Shown here piece by piece: positions 6,585 through 57,121 of a stretch of 64,000 nucleotides of DNA. The stretch is from positions 24,167 to 88,166 of the forward strand of contig SCUD01000035.1 of the NCBI GenBank assembly GCA_004297335.1. The letters are read 5' to 3'. The position numbers and the translations under genes are program-made. Source of the stretch: Gammaproteobacteria bacterium (GTDB lineage Bacteria; Pseudomonadota; Gammaproteobacteria; Steroidobacterales; Steroidobacteraceae). The notes under the pieces are model-generated. The model did not search any database, had not been told where the DNA came from, and saw only the letters and a list, made by a program, of their open reading frames with translations. Within the stretch, counting starts at the first letter, position 1. Each line of letters begins with the position of its first letter.

Positions 6585-7322
6585 TCAGGCCCCGGCCGGA
6601 TCGATTCCGACACCCATCGACAGCGGAATGCCGGCGACCTCGTAGCCGCGCCGGAAATCCTGCACATGGCGTGACATCCACGTCGCCGCCGCCGCGGCGT
6701 CACCGGCGGCGACCGCCTGCAGGATCTGCTGCTGCGCCATGCCGATGCGCCGGCGCGCCTGCGGTACCCGATCAATGATGACGGCCAGTCCCGGCTGCAG
6801 CAGTTGCATCAGCGGCTCGTTCAGCAGCACGAAGACCGGGTTGCCGCTGCCCTCGGCGAGCGCATCGAAGAACTGCGCGACACTGCTGACTGCGATCGTC
6901 CGGTCAGCGTCGGCTCCGGCAAAGCGTGTCGCCGACTCCCGCAACCGCCGCACGATTTCGCTGTCACGGCGCCGCGCCGCTGCCGCGGCGATGCCGGGCT
7001 CGACCGCCAGCAGCGCCTCGCAGACATCCACGACCCGCGCCTCATGCAGCGTCAGCGTCTGGGAGAAATCGCCGGCGAAGGACTCCTTGGTCGGGCGCGT
7101 GACATAGAGCCGCTTGCCGCCCCCGCGCCGGCCCAGGAGTCCACCGCTCTGCAGCTGGCGCAGGGCCTCACGCACCGTCGACCGGTTGACCTCGAACTGG
7201 CGGGCGAGCTCGGTCTCGGTCGGCAGTGCCGCGCCCTCGCGCAGCTCCCGGTTGAGGATGCGCTCCCGGATCGCCTCGCAGACCCGCCGGTAAGCCGGCT
7301 CACGGCCCAAGGGTTCGAACAT
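6585..7322 (-). CDS. GntR family (FadR subfamily) transcriptional regulator
   Basis: Start MFEPLGREPAYRRVCEAIRERIL; HTH LPTETELARQFEVNRSTVREALRQLQSGGLL; helical FCD-type C-terminus. Confidence 0.88.
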   Translation of the reverse strand: MFEPLGREPAYRRVCEAIRERILNRELREGAALPTETELARQFEVNRSTVREALRQLQSGGLLGRRGGGKRLYVTRPTKESFAGDFSQTLTLHEARVVDVCEALLAVEPGIAAAAARRRDSEIVRRLRESATRFAGADADRTIAVSSVAQFFDALAEGSGNPVFVLLNEPLMQLLQPGLAVIIDRVPQARRRIGMAQQQILQAVAAGDAAAAATWMSRHVQDFRRGYEVAGIPLSMGVGIDPAGA

Positions 7323-36164: not shown

Positions 36165-36449
36165 TCAGCGCGCGCTGCTGCCGGCCACCGGCCGCGGCTC
36201 ATCCACCCGGTAGACGGCGGAGATCTCGTGGCTCACGGTGTCGCGCAGCACATTGAACCACTGCCCGCAGCCATGCGTATGGCACCAGCGCTCGGCGAGC
36301 TCACCCCGCGGATTGGCCCGGAAATACAGATAGCGCCCCCATTCCTCGTCGCTGCAGCCCGGCCCCGGGCGCGCGATATGCGACTCGCCGCCATAGCTGA
36401 ACTCGGGCTCGTCACGCGGGCCGCAAAACGGGCATTCAATCGTCAGCAT
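36165..36449 (-). CDS. soxD: sarcosine oxidase delta subunit (SoxD)
   Basis: MLTIECPFCGPRDEPEFSYGGESHIARP...GCGQWFNVLRDTVSHEISAVYRVDEPRP; zinc-binding CPFCG plus CHTHGC. Confidence 0.9.
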   Translation of the reverse strand: MLTIECPFCGPRDEPEFSYGGESHIARPGPGCSDEEWGRYLYFRANPRGELAERWCHTHGCGQWFNVLRDTVSHEISAVYRVDEPRPVAGSSAR

Positions 36450-36483: not shown

Positions 36484-38112
36484 TTACAGCTTTGCCAGCA
36501 GGCGGAGCAGCGGTTGCGGCTCGCCCATCCGGAACAGCGGCGCGAAGCTGTTGTCGCGGAAGGCCGCGACCATCTCGCGGATCGGGCGATCGAGCTGCAT
36601 GTCCTCGGTCATGTACGGCACATGGCTGCGGACAAAGTCGAACGCGGCGCGCGTCGGGCCCAGCCGGTCGGCGCCGCGGATCTCGACGGCCTGCGCCAGC
36701 GCGATCAGCTGCATCGCGACGATCTTCTCGGTCAGGTTGATCACCAGCGCGCAGTCGCGCGCGGCGTGCACGCCGAGCGAAACCTTGTCCTGGTTGTGGC
36801 ATTCGGTCGACTGCGAGTGCACCGAGGCCGGGTTGCAGCGCATCAGCGCCTCGACCAGCAGCGAGGTGCAGGCGAGCTGCATGCCCTTGAAGCCGTGGAA
36901 CACGGCGCGCTGTTCCTCGCTGCGGCCCGGGTCGACGAGGTTGGCCGGCAGGCCATTGCTGAACTTCTCGTCGATGATCAGCTCGAGCTGGCGCTCGGCC
37001 ATCTGCGCGACGTTGGCGACCGCGGTCTTCAGCGCGTCCATCGCCATGCACACATGCCCGCCATAGAAGTTGCCGGCGTTGAACAGGTGCCCGGTCGCGG
37101 CGTCGTACAGCGGATTGTCGTTGGCGGAGTTCAGCTCGTTCTCGATCCACTGCGTCGCCCATTCGAGTACGTCGTCGAGCACGCCCGCGATCTGCGGCGA
37201 GCAGCGGATCGAATAGCGGTCCTGGATCTTGAGGCGCAGCCGCCGCGCCTCGGCGCCGTCGAAGGCGCCAACCTCGGCGAACACCTCGTCGAGGTTGCGC
37301 GCCAGGTGGCTGCCGTCGAGCCAGGCCAGCACCTGGGCCGCGAAGCGCTGCTGGCCACGATGGTTCTTCAGCACGTGGGCGAGCGGCTCGAAGGCGTTGC
37401 GTACGCCGAGCAGTGCCTCGGTGGTCATGGCCGTGGTCAGTGCCGAGAATTCGACGATCTGCGCGGCGCGGAACAGGTTGATCGCCGCGACGCCGGTCAT
37501 CACCGAGGTGCCATTGACGATCCCAAGCCCTTCCTTGGCGCGCAGCGTCAACGGCTTCAGGCCGCATTCGGCCAGCGCCTCGGCGGCTGGCATGATCCGG
37601 CCGCGGAACCAGACCTCGCGGTCGCCACACAGCGTCGCGCCGAGATAGGACAGCGGCACCAGGTCGCCGCTCGCACCCACCGAACCCTGCACCGGGATGC
37701 ACGGCGTGATGCCATGGTTCAGGAAGTCGACCATCTGCTGCAGCAGTTCTACCCGCACGCCCGAATAGCCCTTGGTGTTGGAATTGAGCCGGGCGAGCAG
37801 GATCGCGCGGCCCTCGGGCACGCCGAAGTATTCGCCGGTGCCGGAACCGAGGCAGCGCAGCAGGTTGCGCTGCAGCTCGTCCACGCGCTCGCGTGACAGC
37901 TGCCGGTCGCAACTGTCGCCGAAGCCGGTGGTGACACCGTAGATCGGCTTGCCCTCGGCAATCAGCTGGTCATTCAGCGCACGCGAAGCCCGCACCTGCG
38001 CGAGGCAGGCCGGATCCGGGTCGAGCGCCACCGGAAAGTCGAGGAAGGCTACGCACATCAGCTCGCCGATCGTGAGCGTGCGGCCGTTGATCAGGACGGT
38101 ATCGCGGTGCAT
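36484..38112 (-). CDS. MIO-dependent aromatic amino acid ammonia-lyase or aminomutase (HAL/PAL/PAM family)
   Basis: GSVGASGDLVPLSYLG (Ala-Ser-Gly MIO triad), YGVTTGFG, NSANDNPLYD, HNQDKVSLG; selectivity pair Cys-Leu in NLLRCLGSGTG. Confidence 0.9.
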   Translation of the reverse strand: MHRDTVLINGRTLTIGELMCVAFLDFPVALDPDPACLAQVRASRALNDQLIAEGKPIYGVTTGFGDSCDRQLSRERVDELQRNLLRCLGSGTGEYFGVPEGRAILLARLNSNTKGYSGVRVELLQQMVDFLNHGITPCIPVQGSVGASGDLVPLSYLGATLCGDREVWFRGRIMPAAEALAECGLKPLTLRAKEGLGIVNGTSVMTGVAAINLFRAAQIVEFSALTTAMTTEALLGVRNAFEPLAHVLKNHRGQQRFAAQVLAWLDGSHLARNLDEVFAEVGAFDGAEARRLRLKIQDRYSIRCSPQIAGVLDDVLEWATQWIENELNSANDNPLYDAATGHLFNAGNFYGGHVCMAMDALKTAVANVAQMAERQLELIIDEKFSNGLPANLVDPGRSEEQRAVFHGFKGMQLACTSLLVEALMRCNPASVHSQSTECHNQDKVSLGVHAARDCALVINLTEKIVAMQLIALAQAVEIRGADRLGPTRAAFDFVRSHVPYMTEDMQLDRPIREMVAAFRDNSFAPLFRMGEPQPLLRLLAKL

Positions 38113-38273
38113 GGGAACCCCCGTGGCGCTGGCCGGAGCCGGTTGCAGAAGCTGGAAATCCTATGCCCCTTGCGGCGAAATTGGCTTGCGTTTATTGTCC
38201 TGAGGAGCGATTCTTTGAATGATCCTTTGTGCAACAGGCGTCAGACTGGTAGATTCATTCGGAGGAATCCGGG

Positions 38274-38795
38274 ATGTCCGATCGCCCGCTCGATGCCTGC
38301 GACCAGCGCATGCTGGCGGCGCTGCAGCGCGATGGCCGCATCACCAACCAGCGCCTCGCCGAGTCGGTCGGGACCTCCGCCGCGGCTTGCTGGCGCCGGC
38401 TGCAGCGACTCGTCACGGGCGGCACGATCCGGCGCTTCACGGCAATCGTGGATCCCGCAAGCCTCGGCTACCAGCTGTGCGCGCTGACCTACGTGACGCT
38501 GGCCCGGCACTCGCGTGACGTCGCGGTGCAGTTCGAGCGTGCGGTCACCGAGCGCGACGAGGTCTTCGATTGCCTGGCGGTGACCGGGGACGCCGACTTC
38601 CTGCTGCGCATCTACGTCACCGGCATGGCCGGCTACGACCGCTTTCTCGAGGATTTCCTGTTCACCCTGCCAGGAGTCTCGACCGTGCGCACGAGCTTCG
38701 TGCTGCGCGAGGTCAAGGCCGGTGGCGTGCTGGCGCCGGCACCGCCGGCGGCGCCGGCCCGCGAGCTGCGCGGCCGCCGGGCGCAGCGGCGGTGA
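38274..38795 (+). CDS. Lrp/AsnC family transcriptional regulator
   Basis: LDACDQRMLAALQRDGRITNQRLAESVGTSAAACWRRLQRLVTGGTIRRFTAIVDPASLGY; RAM domain. Confidence 0.9.
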   Translation: MSDRPLDACDQRMLAALQRDGRITNQRLAESVGTSAAACWRRLQRLVTGGTIRRFTAIVDPASLGYQLCALTYVTLARHSRDVAVQFERAVTERDEVFDCLAVTGDADFLLRIYVTGMAGYDRFLEDFLFTLPGVSTVRTSFVLREVKAGGVLAPAPPAAPARELRGRRAQRR

Positions 38796-39451
38796 GGGCC
38801 CGGGTGCGCGGTCCGGCTGGCCACGGGGGTCGCGTGGGCGCGACGGACAAGGCGGGGCCGCGCCGGCGAGCACGAGCCGTTCCGGGCGGCAAGCGCCCGG
38901 CGCCACTCGGTCGCGAAGCGTGGCTGGACGCCGCGAGGTCGGCGCTGATCGAGGCCGGCATCGGCGGCGTCGAGGTCGGCAAGCTGGCGCGCCGACTCGG
39001 CGTCACCCGCGGAGGGTTCTACTGGTTCTTCCGCAGCCGCGCCAGATTGCTGGACGAGCTGCTGGCGTACTGGGAGCGGACCAGCGCTGCCCTGTTCGAA
39101 GGCATCCTGCGCCACGATACGCGTCATGGCATCCGGGAGTTCAGGGCTCTCGTCGATCTGTGGCTCCAGGAGACAGAGTACGATCCGGCCTGGGATGCGG
39201 CGATCCGCGACTGGGCCCGCACCTCGCCGAAGGTCGCCCGCGTTGTCCGCCGCGCCGACGACCGGCGCATCGAGGTGTTGCGCCAGGTGTTCATGGACCT
39301 CGGCTACGGGAATCCCGAGGCGCTGGTGCGGGCGCGCGTGACCTATTACCACCAGATCGGCTACTACGCGCTCGGCGTCCGGCAGACCCGGCGCGAGCGC
39401 CTGAAGCTGCTGCCGTACTACGTGAAGGTGCTGACCGGCCGCCCCGCCTGA
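38792..39451 (+). CDS. TetR/AcrR family transcriptional regulator
   Basis: DAARSALIEAGIGGVEVGKLARRLGVTRGGFYWFFRSRARLLDELLAYWE; GTGA overlap with Lrp stop (alternative GTG 38834). Confidence 0.8.
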   Translation: MRARVRGPAGHGGRVGATDKAGPRRRARAVPGGKRPAPLGREAWLDAARSALIEAGIGGVEVGKLARRLGVTRGGFYWFFRSRARLLDELLAYWERTSAALFEGILRHDTRHGIREFRALVDLWLQETEYDPAWDAAIRDWARTSPKVARVVRRADDRRIEVLRQVFMDLGYGNPEALVRARVTYYHQIGYYALGVRQTRRERLKLLPYYVKVLTGRPA

Positions 39452-39537: not shown

Positions 39538-40788
39538 ATGACGATGGCGAGGTATTCCCTGCCGGTCCTGTTCGGTCACGCGCTCAGCGGCCACCGCCAC
39601 TGGCCGCGGGCGCTGCGTTGCGCTGAGTCGAAGGCGGCTTACGATGCACTGATCGTCGGTGGTGGCGGCCACGGCCTTGCCACCGCGTATTTTCTCGCGG
39701 CGCGGCACGGTATGCGCAATATCGCCGTGCTCGACAAGGGCGCGATCGGCCACGGCAATTCCGGGCGCAACACCCAGGTCGTGCGCTCGGATTATTTCCA
39801 CCTGCCCAGCTCCCGCTTCTTCGAACGCTCGCTCCGGCTCTACGAGGGTTTGAGCCGCGAGCTCAACTACAACGTGATGCTGAGCCAGCGCGGCAAGATC
39901 AATCTTGCGCACAGCCCGCACGACCTGGAGGTCCTGCGCCGCGCGACCAATGCCATCCGGATGAATGGTGTCGACGCCGAACTGCTGAGCGTCGACGAGC
40001 TGCGCCGCCTCGAACCGGCGCTGAACCTGCGCTGCCGCTATCCGATCGAGGGCGGCGCCGTGCAATGGCGCGGCGGCATCGCGCGCCACGACGCGGTCGT
40101 CTGGGCTTTCGCGCGCGCGGCTGGCCGGCTGGGCGTGGATCTGATCCAGGGCTGCGAGGTCACCGGCTTCCTGCTCGAGCGCGGCCGGGTCACCGGTGTC
40201 GAAACGACCCGCGGACGCATTGCCGCTCCGCGGGTCTGTCTTGCGGTCGCCGGGCATTCCTCGGTCCTCGCCCGCCGTGCCGGACTCGAGCTGCCACTCA
40301 ACAGCATGGCCCTGCAGGCGATGGTCACGGAACCGGTGAAGCCGCTGCTGAACACCGTACTGCTGTCGCCGGCGATCCACGTCTATCTCAGCCAGTCGGA
40401 CCGCGGCGAAGTCGTCATCGGCGGCGGCGCTGACATCTTCCACTCCTACGCACAGCGCGGCGGGTTGCCGGTGCTGGAGGCAAACGCGCAGGCCGCGGTC
40501 GAACTGTTCCCCGCGCTCAGCCGACTGCGGGTGATGCGCCAGTGGGCCGGCATCGTCGACATCTCGCCGGACACCAGCCCGATCATGGGCCTGACGCCGG
40601 TCGCCGGGCTCTACCTCAACGCCGGCTGGGGCACCGGCGGCTTCAAGGCAATTCCGGCCGGCGGCGAGACGATGGCCTGGACAATGGCGCACGACCGGCC
40701 GCACGAGCTGATCACGTCCTTCGGACTCGAGCGTTTCACGACCGGCGCACTGGTCGATGAAGGCGCGGCCTCCGGAGTGGCGCACTGA
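39538..40788 (+). CDS. soxB: sarcosine oxidase beta subunit
   Basis: ALIVGGGGHGLATAYFLAARHGMRNIAVLDKGAIGHGNSGRNTQVVRSDY; NAGWGTGGFKAIPAGG. Confidence 0.94.
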   Translation: MTMARYSLPVLFGHALSGHRHWPRALRCAESKAAYDALIVGGGGHGLATAYFLAARHGMRNIAVLDKGAIGHGNSGRNTQVVRSDYFHLPSSRFFERSLRLYEGLSRELNYNVMLSQRGKINLAHSPHDLEVLRRATNAIRMNGVDAELLSVDELRRLEPALNLRCRYPIEGGAVQWRGGIARHDAVVWAFARAAGRLGVDLIQGCEVTGFLLERGRVTGVETTRGRIAAPRVCLAVAGHSSVLARRAGLELPLNSMALQAMVTEPVKPLLNTVLLSPAIHVYLSQSDRGEVVIGGGADIFHSYAQRGGLPVLEANAQAAVELFPALSRLRVMRQWAGIVDISPDTSPIMGLTPVAGLYLNAGWGTGGFKAIPAGGETMAWTMAHDRPHELITSFGLERFTTGALVDEGAASGVAH

Positions 40789-43565
40789 TGGGATACCGCC
40801 TCCCGACCGGTGGCCGCATCGACCGGGCCCGGCCGCTGCGCTGGCGCTGGAACAAACGCGAGCTCACGGCCTTCGCTGGCGACACCATCGCCTCGGCGCT
40901 GCTCGCGAACGACATCCGCATCGTCGGCCGGAGCTTCAAGTTCCATCGCCCGCGCGGCCTGCTCGCGGCGGGCGTCGAGGAACCGAACGCACTGGTGACC
41001 CTCGGCCACGGCGCGGAGACGGACCCGAGTGCCTGCGCGACGATGATCCCCGTTCGCGAGGGACTCGAAGTCCGCAGCCAGAATGCCTGGCCCGGCATCG
41101 GTTTCGATCTGGGGCGAATCGTCGATGCCCTGGCGCCGCTGTTTCCGGCCGGCTTCTACAACAAGACCTTCCTCTGGCCCTCATGGCATCTCTACGAGCC
41201 GTGGATCCGCCGCGCGGCCGGCCTCGGCCCGGCTCCGCGGCTGCCCGATCCTGCGCGTTACGAGACGATCAGCGCTCACTGCGACCTGCTCATCGCCGGT
41301 AGCGGGCCGGCTGGCCTCAAGGCTGCTCTCGCGGCCGCGCAGGCCGGCCTGGCGGTGATCCTCGCCGACCAGGACTGCGAGTTCGGCGGCGAACTGCTCG
41401 GCTCGCGCGAACGGATCGATGGAGCGCCGGCGATGGACTGGGTCGGGCGCGTGGTCGCCGAACTGCGCGCGGCACCGCGCGCAACCCTGCTGCCGGCGAC
41501 GACAGTATTCGGACTCTACGATCACGGTCATGCCGGCCTGCTGCAGCGTCTCAATCCGGCCAGTACTGCCGGCCAGCTGCGCCAGCGTTACTGGCGGGTG
41601 CATGCGGCGCAAACGCTCGTTGCGACCGGTGCGATCGAGCAGCCGCTGGTGTTCGAGTACAACGATCTGCCGGGCATCCTGCTGGCCGGCGCGATCCGCC
41701 GGTATGCCAACCGCCATGCCGTCGCCGCAGGCCGGCGGATCGTGTTCGCAACCAACAACGATTCGGCCTATGTCGCGGCGCTCGATCTCGCGAGCGCCGG
41801 CGTCGCGGTGCCGTTGCTGCTCGACAGCCGCGACGAAGTGCCATCCACCCTCGCCGCCGCATTGCGCGAGCAGGGCATCGAGGTCGCGGCTGGTACCGTC
41901 GTCGTGCGCGCGCAAGGCCGGCGCCGGCTGCGCGGCCTGCGAGTCGGCCGCCGGCGCGCGAACGGCAGCATCGGCGATCTGCGCGAGATCGCCTGCGATG
42001 CGCTCGGCATGTCGGGCGGCTGGGTGCCGACCGTCCATCTCTCCCGGCAGCGCAACGTCGCCACAGCGGGTGCGGCCGCCGCCGCGGCAACCGCGACGGT
42101 GGTCCGCACGCCGGCCGGCCGTGCGCGCCGGCAGTGGCTCGATTTCCAGCACGACGTCACGGTCGCTGACATCGAGCTCGCAGTGCGCGAGGGCTACGAG
42201 CACATCGAGCACGTGAAGCGCTACACCACCGCCGGCATGTCGATCGACCAGGGTCGCACGAGCAACCGCAACACAATGTTGACGGTCGCGGCGCAGACGG
42301 GCCGTGACCCGGCCGCGATCGGCACGACGACCTTCCGTCCGCCGTACACGCCGGTGACCCTCGGTGCGCTGGCCGGACGGCAGACCGGCGAGCGCTACGC
42401 CCCGCGCCGGCGGCTGCCGGCACACACGGAGCACGAGGCCCTCGGTGCGCAGTGGTGGGAGGCCGGCGGCTGGATGCGCCCGAGCTGCTACCCGCACGCC
42501 GGCGAGACCGCGCAACAGGCGATCCGGCGCGAGGCGCTTGCGGTGCGCAGTGCCGCCGGCATCTACGACGCCTCGCCGCTCGGCAAGATCGAAGTCACCG
42601 GCGCGGATGCGGGCGTATTCCTCGACCGCTTCTACTGCAACAACATGCGGACGCTGGCGCCGGGCCGGGTGCGCTATGGGCTGATGCTGAACGAGGCTGG
42701 CGTGATCATCGACGACGGCACCGTCGCGCGCCTCGACGCCGACCGCTGGCTGGTCACGACGACCAGCGGTGCGGCGGCACGCATCGGGCTGTGGCTGGAT
42801 GAATGGCGCCAGTGCGAGTGGCCGGAGCTCGAGGTCTGCGTCACGCCGATCACCGCACAGTGGGCGACCGTCGCGCTCTCGGGTCCGCGCGCGCGCGCTA
42901 TCCTCGCCCGGCTCGGGCCCGATTTCCCGATTGATGGCGAGTCGCTACCGCATCTCTCGGTGCGCGAGGGTCGCCTCGCCGGAGTGCCGGCCAGACTTTA
43001 CCGGGTGAGCTACTCCGGCGAGCTCGGCTACGAACTCAACGTGCCGGCGCGCTGCGGCGCCGCGCTGTGGCGCCGGCTGCTGGCAGCGGGCGCCGATGCC
43101 GGCATCACACCGTACGGCATCGAGACGGTGCTGTTGCTGCGCCTCGAAAAGGGCTTCCTGCACGTTGGCGTGGACACCGACGGGACGACCGCGCCCGCTG
43201 ACGTCGGCTGGGGAGAAATCGCGGCGAAGAAGAACGCTGATTTCATCGGCCGGCGCTCGCTCACGCGCGCCGACAACCGGCGCGCGGATCGCCTGCAGCT
43301 GGTCGGGTTGACGGGGACGGATGCCGGAGTGCTCGTGCCCGGCGCACACCTGCGCCTGGCCGGTACCCGCGAAGGCAGCGACGGCTGGGTGACCTCGGCC
43401 GCGGTGTCGCCGGTGCTCGGGCGTCCGATTGCGCTCGCGCTCCTGCGCGGCGGCCACGCTCGCCGCGGCGAGCGAGTGGCGGTGCACGATCTCGACCGCC
43501 AGTGCACGGCCGAAGTCGTCGCAGCGCCCTTCTACGACCCGCAGGGAGTACGCCTGCATGCCTGA
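40788..43565 (+). CDS. soxA: sarcosine oxidase alpha subunit
   Basis: FRPPYTPVTLGALAGR, GSGPAGLKAALAAAQAG, GCV_T-type C-terminus; TGATG overlap with soxB. Confidence 0.94.
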   Translation: MGYRLPTGGRIDRARPLRWRWNKRELTAFAGDTIASALLANDIRIVGRSFKFHRPRGLLAAGVEEPNALVTLGHGAETDPSACATMIPVREGLEVRSQNAWPGIGFDLGRIVDALAPLFPAGFYNKTFLWPSWHLYEPWIRRAAGLGPAPRLPDPARYETISAHCDLLIAGSGPAGLKAALAAAQAGLAVILADQDCEFGGELLGSRERIDGAPAMDWVGRVVAELRAAPRATLLPATTVFGLYDHGHAGLLQRLNPASTAGQLRQRYWRVHAAQTLVATGAIEQPLVFEYNDLPGILLAGAIRRYANRHAVAAGRRIVFATNNDSAYVAALDLASAGVAVPLLLDSRDEVPSTLAAALREQGIEVAAGTVVVRAQGRRRLRGLRVGRRRANGSIGDLREIACDALGMSGGWVPTVHLSRQRNVATAGAAAAAATATVVRTPAGRARRQWLDFQHDVTVADIELAVREGYEHIEHVKRYTTAGMSIDQGRTSNRNTMLTVAAQTGRDPAAIGTTTFRPPYTPVTLGALAGRQTGERYAPRRRLPAHTEHEALGAQWWEAGGWMRPSCYPHAGETAQQAIRREALAVRSAAGIYDASPLGKIEVTGADAGVFLDRFYCNNMRTLAPGRVRYGLMLNEAGVIIDDGTVARLDADRWLVTTTSGAAARIGLWLDEWRQCEWPELEVCVTPITAQWATVALSGPRARAILARLGPDFPIDGESLPHLSVREGRLAGVPARLYRVSYSGELGYELNVPARCGAALWRRLLAAGADAGITPYGIETVLLLRLEKGFLHVGVDTDGTTAPADVGWGEIAAKKNADFIGRRSLTRADNRRADRLQLVGLTGTDAGVLVPGAHLRLAGTREGSDGWVTSAAVSPVLGRPIALALLRGGHARRGERVAVHDLDRQCTAEVVAAPFYDPQGVRLHA

Positions 43566-44139
43566 GGTCGCCCCGCTGGAACCGCAACCGGTCCTGCCGC
43601 CGGGCACCCTGACCCTGTCGCCGCGCCTGCGACTGACAGTGCCACCGCCGCTCGCCTGGGTGCGGCTGCAGCTCTCCGCCCGCGAGCTGGCCGCGGCACC
43701 AGCCGCACTCCGGGTGGGCGGCATACCGCTGCCGGACCGGATCAACCGCTGGGCCGGGCCAATCCCCGTGATCTGCCGGATCGCGCCGGATCTCTGGATG
43801 CTGCAGGCAAGCGGCATGGAGCCGGCGCGGCTCGTGGCGATGACCGCCACCGCCTGCACCGGGCGTGCCGGCGCGATCACCGACCTGTCGGATGCGCTGG
43901 CCACGATCGCGCTCACCGGCGATGACGCGACTGCGCTGCTCGCCCGCGGCTGTGGCCTGGACCTGTCGCCCGCCGCGTTTCCGCCGGATGCCTGCACCCG
44001 AACACGGTTCGCGCAGCTCGCGGTGCTCGTCCGACGCACAGCCATCGATGGTTACGAGCTGACCGTGGAGGCGTCGGCGGCGCGCTGGCTGTACGATTGG
44101 CTCGTCGATGCGGCCGCCGGCCTCGACCACAGGGAGTGA
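43558..44139 (+). CDS. soxG: sarcosine oxidase gamma subunit
   Basis: Small GCV_T-like protein immediately after soxA (TAITDLSDALATIALTGDDATALLARGCGLDL). Confidence 0.8.
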   Translation: MPEVAPLEPQPVLPPGTLTLSPRLRLTVPPPLAWVRLQLSARELAAAPAALRVGGIPLPDRINRWAGPIPVICRIAPDLWMLQASGMEPARLVAMTATACTGRAGAITDLSDALATIALTGDDATALLARGCGLDLSPAAFPPDACTRTRFAQLAVLVRRTAIDGYELTVEASAARWLYDWLVDAAAGLDHRE

Positions 44140-44145
44140 ACCGAT

Positions 44146-45009
44146 TTGCAGCCACCAAGCTATGTGTTGACCACCTCGACCCCGGACACGACCGGCATTG
44201 TCGCGGCGATCACCGGCTTCCTGGCCGAGCGCGGCGCGCTGATCACCGAGACTCAGCATTTCCGCGATCCGCCGGGCAACCGCTCGTACCTGCGCGCAGT
44301 GTTCCAGGACGCGGGGACCGGCCAGTTGCCCGGCCCGGCCGGCTTTGCGACCGCCTTCAGCCCAACCGCCGCGCGCTTCGGCATGGACTGGCAGCTGCAT
44401 GAAGCCGCCCGCCGCTGCCGAATGCTGATCGCCGTCTCGCGCCAGGGTCACTGCCTGAACAGCATGCTGAACCGCTGGCACAGCGGCACGCTGCCGGTCG
44501 ACGTCGCCGGCGTGGTATCGAACCACGACGACCAGCGCCGGCTCACCGAGTGGTACGGCCTGCCCTACCACTGCCTGCCGATCGGGCCCGATGGCAAGCT
44601 GGCGCAGGAAGCCCGGCTCCTCGAACTGTTCGAGTCGACCGGTGCGGAACTGCTGGTGCTCGCGCGCTACATGCAGGTGCTGTCCGCCGCGGCCTGCCGA
44701 CTCCTCGCCGGCCGCGCAATCAACATCCACCATTCCTTCCTGCCCGGCTTCAAGGGCGCGCGACCCTATCACCAGGCCTACGAGCGCGGCGTCAAGCTGA
44801 TCGGCGCGACCGCGCACTACGTGACCGAGGATCTCGACGACGGCCCGATCATTGAACAGGAAGTGGAGCGCGTGAACCACAACATGGACCCTGAGGAGCT
44901 GACCAGCATCGGTCACGACCTCGAGAGCGTGGCCCTGAATCGCGCGGTCCGCTGGCACGCGGAGCGCCGCATATTCGTGCACGGCAACCGGACCGTCGTG
45001 CTGCGCTGA
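44146..45009 (+). CDS. purU: formyltetrahydrofolate deformylase
   Basis: ACT domain, then VVSNHDD, HCLPIG, VLARYMQVLS, NIHHSFLPGFKGARPYHQAYERGVKLIGATAHYVTEDLDDGPIIEQ. TTG start. Confidence 0.95.
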   Translation: MQPPSYVLTTSTPDTTGIVAAITGFLAERGALITETQHFRDPPGNRSYLRAVFQDAGTGQLPGPAGFATAFSPTAARFGMDWQLHEAARRCRMLIAVSRQGHCLNSMLNRWHSGTLPVDVAGVVSNHDDQRRLTEWYGLPYHCLPIGPDGKLAQEARLLELFESTGAELLVLARYMQVLSAAACRLLAGRAINIHHSFLPGFKGARPYHQAYERGVKLIGATAHYVTEDLDDGPIIEQEVERVNHNMDPEELTSIGHDLESVALNRAVRWHAERRIFVHGNRTVVLR

Positions 45010-45051: not shown

Positions 45052-45117
45052 CCCTGCCGGGAGCATCCGCGGGCCAAGATCAGGCATGATGCAATGTCCG
45101 CTGAACGGAGATTGCCG

Positions 45118-46428
45118 ATGTCCACGACCGTCCGCCTGCTTACCCTCACCCTGCTCGCCAGCGCCACGGCACTCGCGGACGAAGCACCGCCCGGTGACGC
45201 CGCTGCGCTCGCCGCCGAGGTCGCCGCTCCGGTCCTCGCCTGGCGCCGCGACCTCCACGAGCATCCCGAGCTCGGCAACCGTGAGTTCCGCACCGCGAAA
45301 CTCGTTGCCGACCACCTGCGCGGGCTCGGCCTCGAGGTGCGCACCGGCATTGCCCATACCGGCGTCGTCGGCATCCTGCGTGGCGGCCGGCCGGGGCCCC
45401 GGCTGGCGCTGCGCGCGGACATGGACGCACTGCCGGTCACGGAACGCGTGGACCTGCCGTTTGCCTCCCGGGTCGTCGCCGAGTACCGCGGCCAGCAGAC
45501 CGGCGTCATGCATGCCTGCGGTCACGACACTCATACGGCGATCCTGATGGGCGTTGCCCAGGCGCTCGCCTCAATTCGAGGAAAGCTTCCGGGTGAGGTC
45601 ATGTTCATCTTCCAGCCGGCCGAGGAAGGAGCGCCAGACGGCGAGGACGGCGGTGCCGCGATGATGCTGGCCGAGGGATTGTTCCAGGACTTCACACCGG
45701 ACGCAGTGCTCGGCCTGCATGTGATCGCCGGCATGCCCTCGGACACCATCGCCACCCGCGCCGGTCCGTTCATGGCCGCGGGCGATTCCTTCAGCATCCG
45801 GGTGATCGGGCGCCAGAGCCACGGCTCGCGCCCATGGAGCGGTATCGATCCGATCGTCGCCGCGGCCGAAATCATCACCAGCGCACAGACCGTGGTCAGC
45901 CGCCAAGTGGACCTCACGCGTGCACCGGTGGTGCTGTCCTTCGGCGCCATCCACGGTGGTATCCGCTCCAATATCATCCCGGACTCGGTCGAACTGATCG
46001 GCACGATCCGCACCTTCGAGCCGGACATGCGCGACAAGGTCTTCGCAGGACTGAAGAGCGTGGCCGAACACGTCGCGGCCGCCCATGGCGCCAGGGTCGA
46101 GACGAAGATACCGGACGAGCAGGGCTACCCGGTAACCCGCAACGATCCGGCACTGACGGCGCGCCTGCGGCCAAGCCTGGCCCGCGCCGCCGGCGGCCGG
46201 CTGATCGAAATCCCGCCGATCACGGGTTCCGAGGACTTCAGCTTCTACGGGCAGCATGCTCCCGCGCTCTTCTTCTTCGTCGGCGCCACGCCACCCGGTC
46301 CGGACGCAGCGTCCGCGCCAACGAATCACTCTCCGGAGTTCTTCGTCGACGAGGCAGCGCTGCCGCTGGGTACCCGGGCGCTGCTGCAGGCCTCCCTCGA
46401 CTTCCTGGCCGGCGCCGGCACCGACTGA
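45118..46428 (+). CDS. secreted M20 family amidohydrolase/carboxypeptidase
   Basis: Signal peptide; HEHPELGNREF, RADMDALPV, HACGHDTHTAIL, FQPAEEGAPDGEDGG; ATG 45118 has an upstream GGAG. Confidence 0.9.
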   Translation: MSTTVRLLTLTLLASATALADEAPPGDAAALAAEVAAPVLAWRRDLHEHPELGNREFRTAKLVADHLRGLGLEVRTGIAHTGVVGILRGGRPGPRLALRADMDALPVTERVDLPFASRVVAEYRGQQTGVMHACGHDTHTAILMGVAQALASIRGKLPGEVMFIFQPAEEGAPDGEDGGAAMMLAEGLFQDFTPDAVLGLHVIAGMPSDTIATRAGPFMAAGDSFSIRVIGRQSHGSRPWSGIDPIVAAAEIITSAQTVVSRQVDLTRAPVVLSFGAIHGGIRSNIIPDSVELIGTIRTFEPDMRDKVFAGLKSVAEHVAAAHGARVETKIPDEQGYPVTRNDPALTARLRPSLARAAGGRLIEIPPITGSEDFSFYGQHAPALFFFVGATPPGPDAASAPTNHSPEFFVDEAALPLGTRALLQASLDFLAGAGTD

Positions 46429-54457: not shown

Positions 54458-54775
54458 TCACTCGTCGGGGGCGATCTCGACGCGGATGCCTTCCAGCTTC
54501 TGATCGAAGCGGAACTGGCAGGACAGCCGCGAAGTCTCCGGCCGGTAGCCATCGAGCTGGCCGAGCCGCTCGCGCTCGTCGTCCTGCATCGCCGGCAGCC
54601 GCGAACGCCAGGGCTCCGCGACATAGACGTGGCAGGTTGCGCAGGAACACAGCCCGCCGCAAACCGCCGCGACGCCATAGTCGAGATCGCGAAGTGTTTC
54701 CATCAGGCTGAGACCCGCCTTGCCCGGCACCCGATGCTCGCGCCCGTCCCGATCCGTCACGACGATCTCCGCCAT
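54458..54775 (-). CDS. 2Fe-2S ferredoxin (adrenodoxin-like)
   Basis: MAEIVVTDRDGREHRVPGKAGLSLMETLRDLDYGVAAVCGGLCSCATCHVYV, CX5CX2C...C. Confidence 0.88.
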   Translation of the reverse strand: MAEIVVTDRDGREHRVPGKAGLSLMETLRDLDYGVAAVCGGLCSCATCHVYVAEPWRSRLPAMQDDERERLGQLDGYRPETSRLSCQFRFDQKLEGIRVEIAPDE

Positions 54776-54877
54776 CGCCACACTCCTTGTCGCAGTCCGA
54801 TGCCGGACCCGGCCGGGTGGCGCGAGATCCGAAGGGGGCGCCAGTTTGCTGGAGCCCTGCGGTCCCCGCAAGCGCCC

Positions 54878-56509
54878 TCAGTGGAACAGGTTCGCCGTCA
54901 CGGTCCCGACTGCGGCAGCGACATGGGCGCGCGCCCGGAGGTCGCCGATCACCCGGGCCACGTAGCCGCCGAGGAACTGATCGCGGTCGTCGAAGATCAG
55001 TGGCCGGGAGTCGCTGGGCGGAACCTCGAGCACCGCGCGTACCGCCTCGTAGAGCGCCGCGGTCGCCGGGGACAGCGTACCGCGCGCATCGCAGGTTCCG
55101 GCTACCCGCTGCGACCTCAGGTCCGCGGCCTGCACGGCGAAGATCAGCGCATTCGCCAGATAATGCTCCAGCAGGTCCAGCGAGCGGCGCGCGAGCAGCG
55201 CCGAGCCCATGCCCTGGCTGTTGACGTTCTGGTTGAACTGCTCGGCATGGGTCGGGAACCGGTCGGCCAGCGAGTTCCCGTACCACGAGATCAGCGGCAT
55301 GATCGAGTTGCCGGCCGTCTGCAGGGCCTTGAGACCCAGGTTGGTCCGGTGCTCCGGATTGCCGACCAGGCACGGCGGCAGGCCGTTGTTGAAGGCCGGC
55401 TCGACCAGCAGCGCGATCTGCACGTCCAGGTGCTTGGCCACCATGCCGAGGTGATAGCGCAGCTGGTCCATGCCGACGGCGGTGTACTGCGCGAGGAAGT
55501 TGCCACCGTGGTGGATGAAGTCCCCGGCCACGTCGATCAGCGGATTGTCGTTGGCCGAATTGGCCTCGATCTCGATCGAGCCGGCGATCTGGTTGACGCC
55601 GTCGATGATGGGACCGAGGAACTGCGGCAGGCAGCGCAGCGAGTAGCGGTCCTGCACCAGCCGGCCACGACGGCTTTCGATGTCGCCATGCACGGCGTCG
55701 AACGTGAGCTTTGATCCTGCCAGCAAACGGGCCATCTCGCGCGCGGTGCGGACCTGCCCTGGATGCGGCTTGTGCTCGTGGATGAACGGATCGAAGGAAT
55801 GCGCGGTACCGGTCAGCGCCTGGATGTAGATCGCGTGCACGCCGAGCGCAATCGCCAGCAGGTAGCGGGTGCGATCCAGGCAGTTCGCGGCGACGCCGGT
55901 GCAGACCGACGTGCCATTGGCCAGCGCCAGGCCCTCCTTGGCGGCGAGCGGAATCGGCTTGAGCCCCAGCTGGCTGAGTGCCGCGGGTGAATCCATGACC
56001 TGGCCGCGCAGGTCGACCTTGTAATCCGCGCTGACGCCGGTGAGCGCGCCGGCCATGTAGGCGAGCGGGATCAGGTCACCGCTCGCACCGATCGAGCCGA
56101 GCTCGTGGACCAGCGGAGTTGCGCCGGCGTTCAGGAAGGTCGCGAACCGCTGCAGGATCTCCAGCCGGATGCCGGAGACGCCCCGCATCAGCGAATTCGC
56201 CCGCAGCAGCAGCGCGGCCCGGACATCCGGCACCGGCAGCAGGTCGCCGGCCGTGGCTGAAAGGTGGAAGACCAGGTTCTGCTGCAGCTGGGCCGCGAGC
56301 TCCGGCGGTATGTATTGATCCGCCATGCCGCCGAACAGGGTGGTCACGCCGTAGATTGCCCGCCCGGCGTCGACGGCATCCTGGATGTAGGCGCGCGAAG
56401 CCTCGATCCGCGCGGTCGTGTCCGCATCATCCGCCAGCCGCACCGGGGCGCCGCGCGCCACCGCGGCGATGTCGGCGATCCTGAGATCCGAGCCGCTGAT
56501 CGTGATCAT
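54878..56509 (-). CDS. MIO-dependent aromatic ammonia-lyase, AvPAL-like with His-Leu selectivity pair (predicted tyrosine ammonia-lyase)
   Basis: GSIGASGDLIPLAYMAG MIO triad; LLLRANSLMRGVSGIRLEILQR, RFPTHAEQFNQNVNSQG as in cyanobacterial PALs; NLVFHLSATAG selectivity segment. Confidence 0.9.
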   Translation of the reverse strand: MITISGSDLRIADIAAVARGAPVRLADDADTTARIEASRAYIQDAVDAGRAIYGVTTLFGGMADQYIPPELAAQLQQNLVFHLSATAGDLLPVPDVRAALLLRANSLMRGVSGIRLEILQRFATFLNAGATPLVHELGSIGASGDLIPLAYMAGALTGVSADYKVDLRGQVMDSPAALSQLGLKPIPLAAKEGLALANGTSVCTGVAANCLDRTRYLLAIALGVHAIYIQALTGTAHSFDPFIHEHKPHPGQVRTAREMARLLAGSKLTFDAVHGDIESRRGRLVQDRYSLRCLPQFLGPIIDGVNQIAGSIEIEANSANDNPLIDVAGDFIHHGGNFLAQYTAVGMDQLRYHLGMVAKHLDVQIALLVEPAFNNGLPPCLVGNPEHRTNLGLKALQTAGNSIMPLISWYGNSLADRFPTHAEQFNQNVNSQGMGSALLARRSLDLLEHYLANALIFAVQAADLRSQRVAGTCDARGTLSPATAALYEAVRAVLEVPPSDSRPLIFDDRDQFLGGYVARVIGDLRARAHVAAAVGTVTANLFH

Positions 56510-56515
56510 TGGAGC

Positions 56516-56570
56516 TGTCCTTTCCGGGTTGGCTGGCGAGGGCATCAGCCTAGCGAACCGGCCGGAAAGG
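56516..56570 (-). promoter_or_regulatory. structured 5' leader that can sequester the Shine-Dalgarno of the lyase
   Basis: CCTTTCCG-GCC-GGTT-CGCTA-GGCTG...CAGCC-AACC-CGGAAAGG on the minus strand, 17 potential bp; 3' arm includes the AAGGA 8 nt before ATG 56509. Confidence 0.55.
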
Positions 56571-56644: not shown

Positions 56645-57121
56645 CTACCCGGTAGCCTGCTGCAGCGGCAGCGCGGTCGTGTACTTCACCTCGCGCAGCG
56701 CGAGGCTCGAGCGCACACGCACCAGGCCCGGAATCTTGAACAGGAATTCGTGCAGGAACCGGTCGTAGGCCTGCGCGCCGGTGACCATGATCTTGAGCAC
56801 GTACTCCGCCTCGCCCATCACCGAATAGCATTCGACGATCTCCGGCACGCCCGCCACCGACTCCTCGAAGCGGCGCACCTCGTCCTCCTTGTAGCACTGC
56901 AGCTGCACGGTGGCCCAGGCGATGATGTCGAGCCCGATCTTGGCCGGGTCCACCAGCGCGACATAGCGCCGGATCACGCCGCTGTCCTGCAGCGCCTGTA
57001 CGCGACGCCAGCAGGGCGAGGCCGACATGCCGGCCTGCTCGGCCAGCTCCTGATTGGTGATCCTGCCGTCCTGCTGCAGGATCCCGAGCAGTCGCGCTTC
57101 GCTGGCAGTGAGCTTGCCCAT
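56645..57121 (-). CDS. Lrp/AsnC family transcriptional regulator
   Basis: MGKLTASEARLLGILQQDGRITNQELAEQAGMSASPCWRRVQALQDSGVIRRYVALVDPAKIGLD. Confidence 0.92.
   Translation of the reverse strand: MGKLTASEARLLGILQQDGRITNQELAEQAGMSASPCWRRVQALQDSGVIRRYVALVDPAKIGLDIIAWATVQLQCYKEDEVRRFEESVAGVPEIVECYSVMGEAEYVLKIMVTGAQAYDRFLHEFLFKIPGLVRVRSSLALREVKYTTALPLQQATG

Follow-up and report, generated by a model that had tools for sequence, protein, structure and literature searches.

A rare Cys-Leu selectivity pair in a probable BagA-branch, phenylalanine-type ammonia-lyase encoded inside a sarcosine-oxidase-type locus of a gammaproteobacterium

The described enzymes that share a clade with the protein studied here, which we call MIO1, are BagA/FevW and the actinobacterial phenylalanine ammonia-lyases (PALs) SrPAL and BlPAL, joined to it through actinobacterial relatives that score 571-672 bits on the BagA model. 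In the BagA clade, a Phe-Leu selectivity pair marks PALs and Tyr-His marks tyrosine ammonia-lyases (TALs), and PALs have been found at 54-58% identity to BagA (PMC5651878). A different pair is known from the Taxus phenylalanine aminomutase (PAM), whose Cys107 has been described as responsible for substrate recognition; in the C107S variant, activity and beta-selectivity were slightly raised (PMC11374720). The pocket residues of plant PALs and plant PAMs are nearly the same and alone do not tell the two apart (PMC5651878).

The window analyzed here is a stretch of 64,000 nucleotides from a gammaproteobacterial assembly, and all positions below refer to it unless another locus is named. MIO1 is an intact reading frame with an ATG start and a GC3 of 0.91. 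It belongs to the MIO family, with 533 bits on PF00221, Ala-Ser-Gly at 147-149 and the catalytic lid Tyr58. The assembly (187 contigs, incomplete; 97.6% complete) holds three MIO genes, namely MIO1, MIO2 and hutH on contig 146. The features of MIO1 are:
36484-38112, minus strand: MIO1, MIO-dependent aromatic amino acid ammonia-lyase (proposed), 542 aa, with Cys87-Leu88, MIO triad 147-149, lid Tyr58, Lys409/Glu437 and Asn440-Gln441
37849-37854, minus strand: codons of Cys87-Leu88, the selectivity pair (computed from the ORF start at 38112 and the residue numbers; alignments)
37666-37674, minus strand: codons of Ala147-Ser148-Gly149, predicted to cyclize to the MIO group (computed from the ORF start and the residue numbers)

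The MIO1 segment NLLRCLGSGTG aligns with NLVWFLKTGAG of AvPAL (F107-L108), NLVRSHSAGVG of SgTAM and SLVLSHAAGIG of PpHAL. Alignment to AvPAL, SgTAM, AdmH and PpHAL fixes the selectivity position and confirms the Cys-Leu pair that an earlier note on this DNA had read there. That note had also placed a Cys at this position in Taxus PAM, and the PDB sequences of that enzyme indeed read ELQESLIRCLLAG, i.e., the same Cys-Leu pair as in MIO1. The Gln, Arg and Leu pocket positions of the Taxus enzyme (TcPAM) match as well by a constant numbering offset. TcPAM differs in being plant-type and longer, its PDB chains having 696-707 residues. Within the BagA/aryl-polyene clade of our tree (30 members), Cys at the selectivity position is confined to MIO1; the residue occurs again, paired with Val, in L011, a relative of the AdmH type.

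For the rest of the pocket, we compared 25 AvPAL active-site positions of our own choosing. MIO1 keeps 19 of them, SgTAM 17, AdmH 16 and HAL 14. Among those kept in MIO1 are, in AvPAL numbering, Lys419, Glu448, Asn451, Gln452, Gln311, Tyr314 and Arg317 (K409, E437, N440, Q441, Q297, Y300 and R303 in MIO1); the PAL-type Lys/Glu positions are A/N in SgTAM, M/T in AdmH and M/S in HAL. Measured against a PAL pocket of Phe-Leu plus the AvPAL residues, MIO1 retains Leu, Lys, Glu, Asn, Gln, Arg and Tyr and has Cys in place of Phe. Its departures from AvPAL are F107C, I423L, H359N, G86D, M222V and A447T. D86, V222 and T447 are common to MIO1 and its actinobacterial Phe-Leu relatives, and N359 to most of them. 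Cys87 thus seems to have arisen late, within a lineage of lyases whose members otherwise carry Phe-Leu, the published PAL pair.

The best NCBIfam model for MIO1 is that of the BagA/FevW tyrosine ammonia-lyases (NF041222), on which it reaches 507 bits, far under the 1000-bit cut-off for equivalence. It scores 415-423 bits on the HutH models, 410 on D-beta-PAM, 373 on tyrosine 2,3-aminomutase (TAM, TIGR03832; cut-off 501) and 251 on Taxus PAM (TIGR04473; cut-off 1250), the lowest of all models. We placed MIO1 in a 45-protein IQ-TREE phylogeny, which lacked Taxus PAM and was drawn with a midpoint root; there it fell within the BagA-type aromatic ammonia-lyase clade. It joined actinobacterial lyases (support 96/82), and this group joined the aryl-polyene-type lyases of gammaproteobacteria (98/89). 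The BagA-type and aryl-polyene-type lyases together then joined AvPAL and MIO2 (100/98). The AdmH-type mutases, SgTAM and the HALs lay on the other side of the tree. AU tests rejected a grouping of MIO1 with the AdmH-type mutases (p-AU 5.8e-07) and with SgTAM (p-AU 2.6e-05). An AdmH-type pocket is likewise lacking: AvPAL positions 419, 423, 448 and 451 are Lys, Leu, Glu and Asn in MIO1 versus Met, Phe, Thr and Phe.

MIO1 shares with the BagA-type lyases the YGVT-x-GFGDS lid, the STExHNQDKVS motif and the PAL-type Lys/Glu pair; unlike them, it has neither Phe-Leu (PAL) nor Tyr-His (TAL) and lies outside any biosynthetic cluster. The lid and HNQDKVS motifs of the aryl-polyene-cluster lyases, the gammaproteobacterial sister group, are also similar to those of MIO1, but these enzymes carry Phe-His or Tyr-His and, where examined, are encoded among acyl carrier protein and ketosynthase genes. 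Among the sampled genomes of the same genus, family or order, no MIO1 ortholog exceeded about 38% identity, and the best relatives in the class and phylum samples reached at most 47%. A scan of the genome collection returned five actinobacterial relatives (45-49% identity in the best tblastn segment) and a plasmid search one at 47%. Because the closest relatives found are only 44-50% identical and the end branch of MIO1 is long (1.19), any transfer of function to it is loose. The relatives sit in polyketide-like and aryl-polyene-like clusters. On the Pseudonocardia plasmid pLS2-2 (L090, 8400-21548), for example, a BagA-type Phe-Leu lyase gene lies beside carboxyl transferase, biotin carrier protein and ketosynthase genes, and this locus resembles a polyketide-type cluster with a cinnamate starter.

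An AlphaFold2 model of MIO1, built from an alignment of seven sequences, had a mean pLDDT of 77, with low confidence in the lid loop (59-72) and the MIO residues. It matched AvPAL, SgTAM, AdmH, HAL and TAL about equally (query-normalized TM 0.74-0.81). With the lid loop poorly predicted from so few sequences, the model confirms the fold and does not bear on the choice between lyase and mutase.

MIO1 is divergent from an Lrp-type regulator gene (Lrp1) across a 161-bp gap, as the earlier note had stated. Unmentioned there, the two genes sit inside a sarcosine-oxidase-type (sox) locus, with soxD on one side and tetR-soxB-soxA-soxG-purU-M20 on the other:
36165-36449, minus strand: soxD (sarcosine-oxidase-type complex, delta subunit); no second soxD turned up in the genome; 34 bp separate it from MIO1, which lies upstream
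38113-38273, no strand: divergent intergenic region between MIO1 and Lrp1, 161 bp, GC 0.56 (whole window, 0.70); presumed to hold the promoters and an Lrp site
38274-38795, plus strand: Lrp1, Lrp/AsnC-family regulator, 173 aa (Lrp model 124 bits, under the equivalog cut-off)
38888-39451, plus strand: core of the sox-locus TetR-family regulator, which shares 67% identity with the TetR encoded beside soxD in two family genomes
39538-40788, plus strand: soxB, beta subunit (FAD-dependent oxidoreductase)
40788-43565, plus strand: soxA, alpha subunit (1158.6 bits, just below the cut-off of 1164)
43558-44139, plus strand: soxG, gamma subunit
44146-45009, plus strand: purU, formyltetrahydrofolate deformylase (above cut-off)
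45094-46428, plus strand: amidohydrolase of the M20 family; by eye, its N terminus appears to carry a signal sequence

In the divergent region we found no match to the sigma-70 consensus, and a promoter and terminator scan gave nothing above chance. As soxD follows MIO1 by 34 bp on the same strand, it is probably read through from MIO1, and the two would be co-transcribed; MIO1 with Lrp1 forms a two-gene divergon between soxD and tetR-soxBAG. Six family genomes carry soxB at 74-82% identity, and MIO1 is absent from the sox locus in all of them. In three, all of the same genus (G962, G1004, G085), soxD lies right next to soxB, the two genes being divergent; in two (G170, G1067), soxD is divergent from a TetR gene and an M19-type dipeptidase gene lies ahead of soxB; in the last (G173), the soxD-tetR and soxBAG parts are about 13 kb apart. 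DNA alignment to G962 places window positions 36449 and 39553 at 6671 and 6706 there, with MIO1, Lrp1 and TetR absent. Gain of MIO1 in this lineage is the simpler reading, and loss elsewhere is possible.

A second MIO gene, again with an Lrp-type regulator, lies 17 kb from MIO1:
54878-56545, minus strand: MIO2, second MIO enzyme, AvPAL-like, pair His-Leu
56645-57121, minus strand: Lrp2, second Lrp-family regulator, directly upstream of MIO2

MIO2 is the close AvPAL relative of this genome, whereas in MIO1 the AvPAL residues F107, I423 and H359 have become Cys, Leu and Asn. MIO2 and Lrp2 are also absent from G962, where window positions 54775 and 57332 correspond to 24475 and 24706, and of 200 family genomes, G947 is the only other one in which a MIO2-like gene (57% identity) was found. 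A 2Fe-2S ferredoxin-like gene (54458-54871, minus strand) directly follows MIO2; it lies outside the MIO2 cassette, since G962 has it without MIO2. Elsewhere in the order, two AdmH-type MIO enzymes (L102, 6327-8572; L103, 3258-5474) with the pairs Ser-Val and Cys-Val reach 729-741 bits on the D-beta-PAM model, below its cut-off of 800. Their genes are also divergent from an Lrp gene, so MIO and Lrp recur as a pair. Genes further along in both loci resemble, by eye, CoA-ligase-type enzymes, and the two enzymes may serve to break down aromatic amino acids instead of making antibiotics.

Genes for aromatic catabolism are present in the genome. The genes boxC-boxB-boxA, for aerobic benzoyl-CoA degradation, lie together on contig 71 (L153, 82-4330) and all score above their cut-offs, as does pobA. 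Phenylalanine 4-hydroxylase (phhA) and homogentisate 1,2-dioxygenase (hmgA) had no match in the 97.6%-complete assembly with the models used, equivalents outside these models being possible. Near MIO1 we identified no acyl-CoA ligase that would act on cinnamate. In the family, boxB occurs in 14 of 200 genomes and does not track MIO genes: G986, of the same genus, has boxB without a MIO2-like gene, and the reverse holds for G947. We found no relevant literature on bacterial phenylalanine degradation via cinnamoyl-CoA and box genes.

From its sequence and its place in the tree, we propose that MIO1 probably serves in catabolism as a phenylalanine-type ammonia-lyase, a BagA-branch enzyme whose Cys-Leu pocket is rare. 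The Ala-Ser-Gly triad would form the MIO electrophile, to which an aromatic L-amino acid would become attached through its alpha-amine; Tyr58 would abstract the beta proton, and an aryl-acrylate and ammonia would leave. Cys87-Leu88 would line a hydrophobic pocket, roomier than one with Phe-Leu and without the His that serves substrates with a ring hydroxyl or an imidazole. Given Leu at 88, the absence of His and the hydrophobic pocket, the likely substrate would be L-phenylalanine or a bulkier nonpolar analog. Cinnamate might then pass through cinnamoyl-CoA and beta-oxidation to benzoyl-CoA, which the enzymes encoded by boxABC can degrade, and a route from tyrosine through coumarate and 4-hydroxybenzoate to PobA would fit MIO2 with its His-Leu pair. 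Lrp1 presumably controls MIO1 in response to the amino acid.

Other identities have to be weighed against this one. Automatic pipelines might name MIO1 HutH, given its 415-423 bits on the HutH models, but these scores lie under the cut-offs of 524 and 539. The E414 residue of PpHAL reads the imidazole; MIO1 has Gln441 at this Glu position, Cys-Leu instead of Ser-His and no hut neighbors. The hut locus is on another contig (146), where the genome's own HutH follows hutU near hutF and hutC, carries Ser-His and scores 663-699 bits on the HutH models. On residues, scores and this separate locus, a histidine ammonia-lyase is hardly credible and we reject it, in line with the earlier note, which had found no hut genes around MIO1 and doubted such a label. 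A BagA-like ammonia-lyase acting on tyrosine (or DOPA), by which 4-hydroxybenzoate would be supplied to the PobA route, would agree with BagA/FevW as the best model and with the presence of pobA. It is nonetheless unlikely: the Tyr-specific enzymes of the BagA clade carry Tyr-His or Phe-His (PMC5651878), MIO1 has neither His, and of the enzymes in this genome MIO2 suits that role better. The earlier note had preferred an aminomutase, in which the enzyme would hold the acrylate, rotate it and re-add ammonia at the beta carbon to give a beta-amino acid, as Taxus PAM does. The shared Cys-Leu pair speaks for it, as do the pocket residues that fail to discriminate plant PAM from PAL (PMC5651878); AvPAL itself is described as showing weak mutase-like activity (PMC6413883). 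However, the shared cysteine is described as a substrate-recognition residue in the Taxus enzyme, and the three characterized mutases carry three different pairs (Cys-Leu in TcPAM, Ser-His, the same as in HAL, in SgTAM and Ala-Val in AdmH). Because mutases vary at the pair and C107S keeps its activity and beta-selectivity (PMC11374720), the pair informs on the substrate ring and says little about whether the reaction is that of a lyase or a mutase. The tree places MIO1 with lyases, its groupings with AdmH-type mutases or SgTAM are rejected, the Taxus PAM model gives the lowest score and no biosynthetic cluster using a beta-amino acid is seen around the gene. An aminomutase is therefore improbable and that preference unsupported.

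Phenylalanine degradation leaves the position of MIO1 in the sox locus unexplained. MIO1 might instead work with the sox complex: a periplasmic M20 enzyme would free an N-methylated aromatic amino acid, SoxBDAG would demethylate it, PurU would recycle the one-carbon unit and MIO1 would deaminate the product. The position of MIO1 between soxD and tetR-soxBAG-purU-M20, with the genome's only soxD just downstream on the same strand, points this way. The sox loci of other family genomes carry M19 dipeptidase, POT peptide transporter, gamma-glutamyltransferase and SNF-type transporter genes nearby, and the dipeptidase, POT transporter and gamma-glutamyltransferase would suit imported peptide-like compounds. 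We nevertheless regard such a coupling as rather doubtful, since six orthologous sox loci lack MIO1, so that the sox complex does not need it, and the pairing occurs in one genome only and could be a chance insertion. There is, in our estimate, only a slim chance of an unrecorded route in which a sox-type complex N-demethylates an aromatic amino acid freed by M20 and a Cys-Leu lyase then converts it to the acrylate, soxD and the lyase gene sharing one transcript.

If MIO1 is indeed a lyase, this bacterium may degrade phenylalanine and tyrosine via two plant-style lyases, MIO1 and MIO2, instead of the homogentisate pathway. The selectivity pair would then be a poor guide to mutase versus lyase, with Cys-Leu found both in the Taxus mutase and in a lyase by descent. 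Bulky phenylalanine analogs of use in biocatalysis may also fit into a natural Cys-Leu pocket of this kind.
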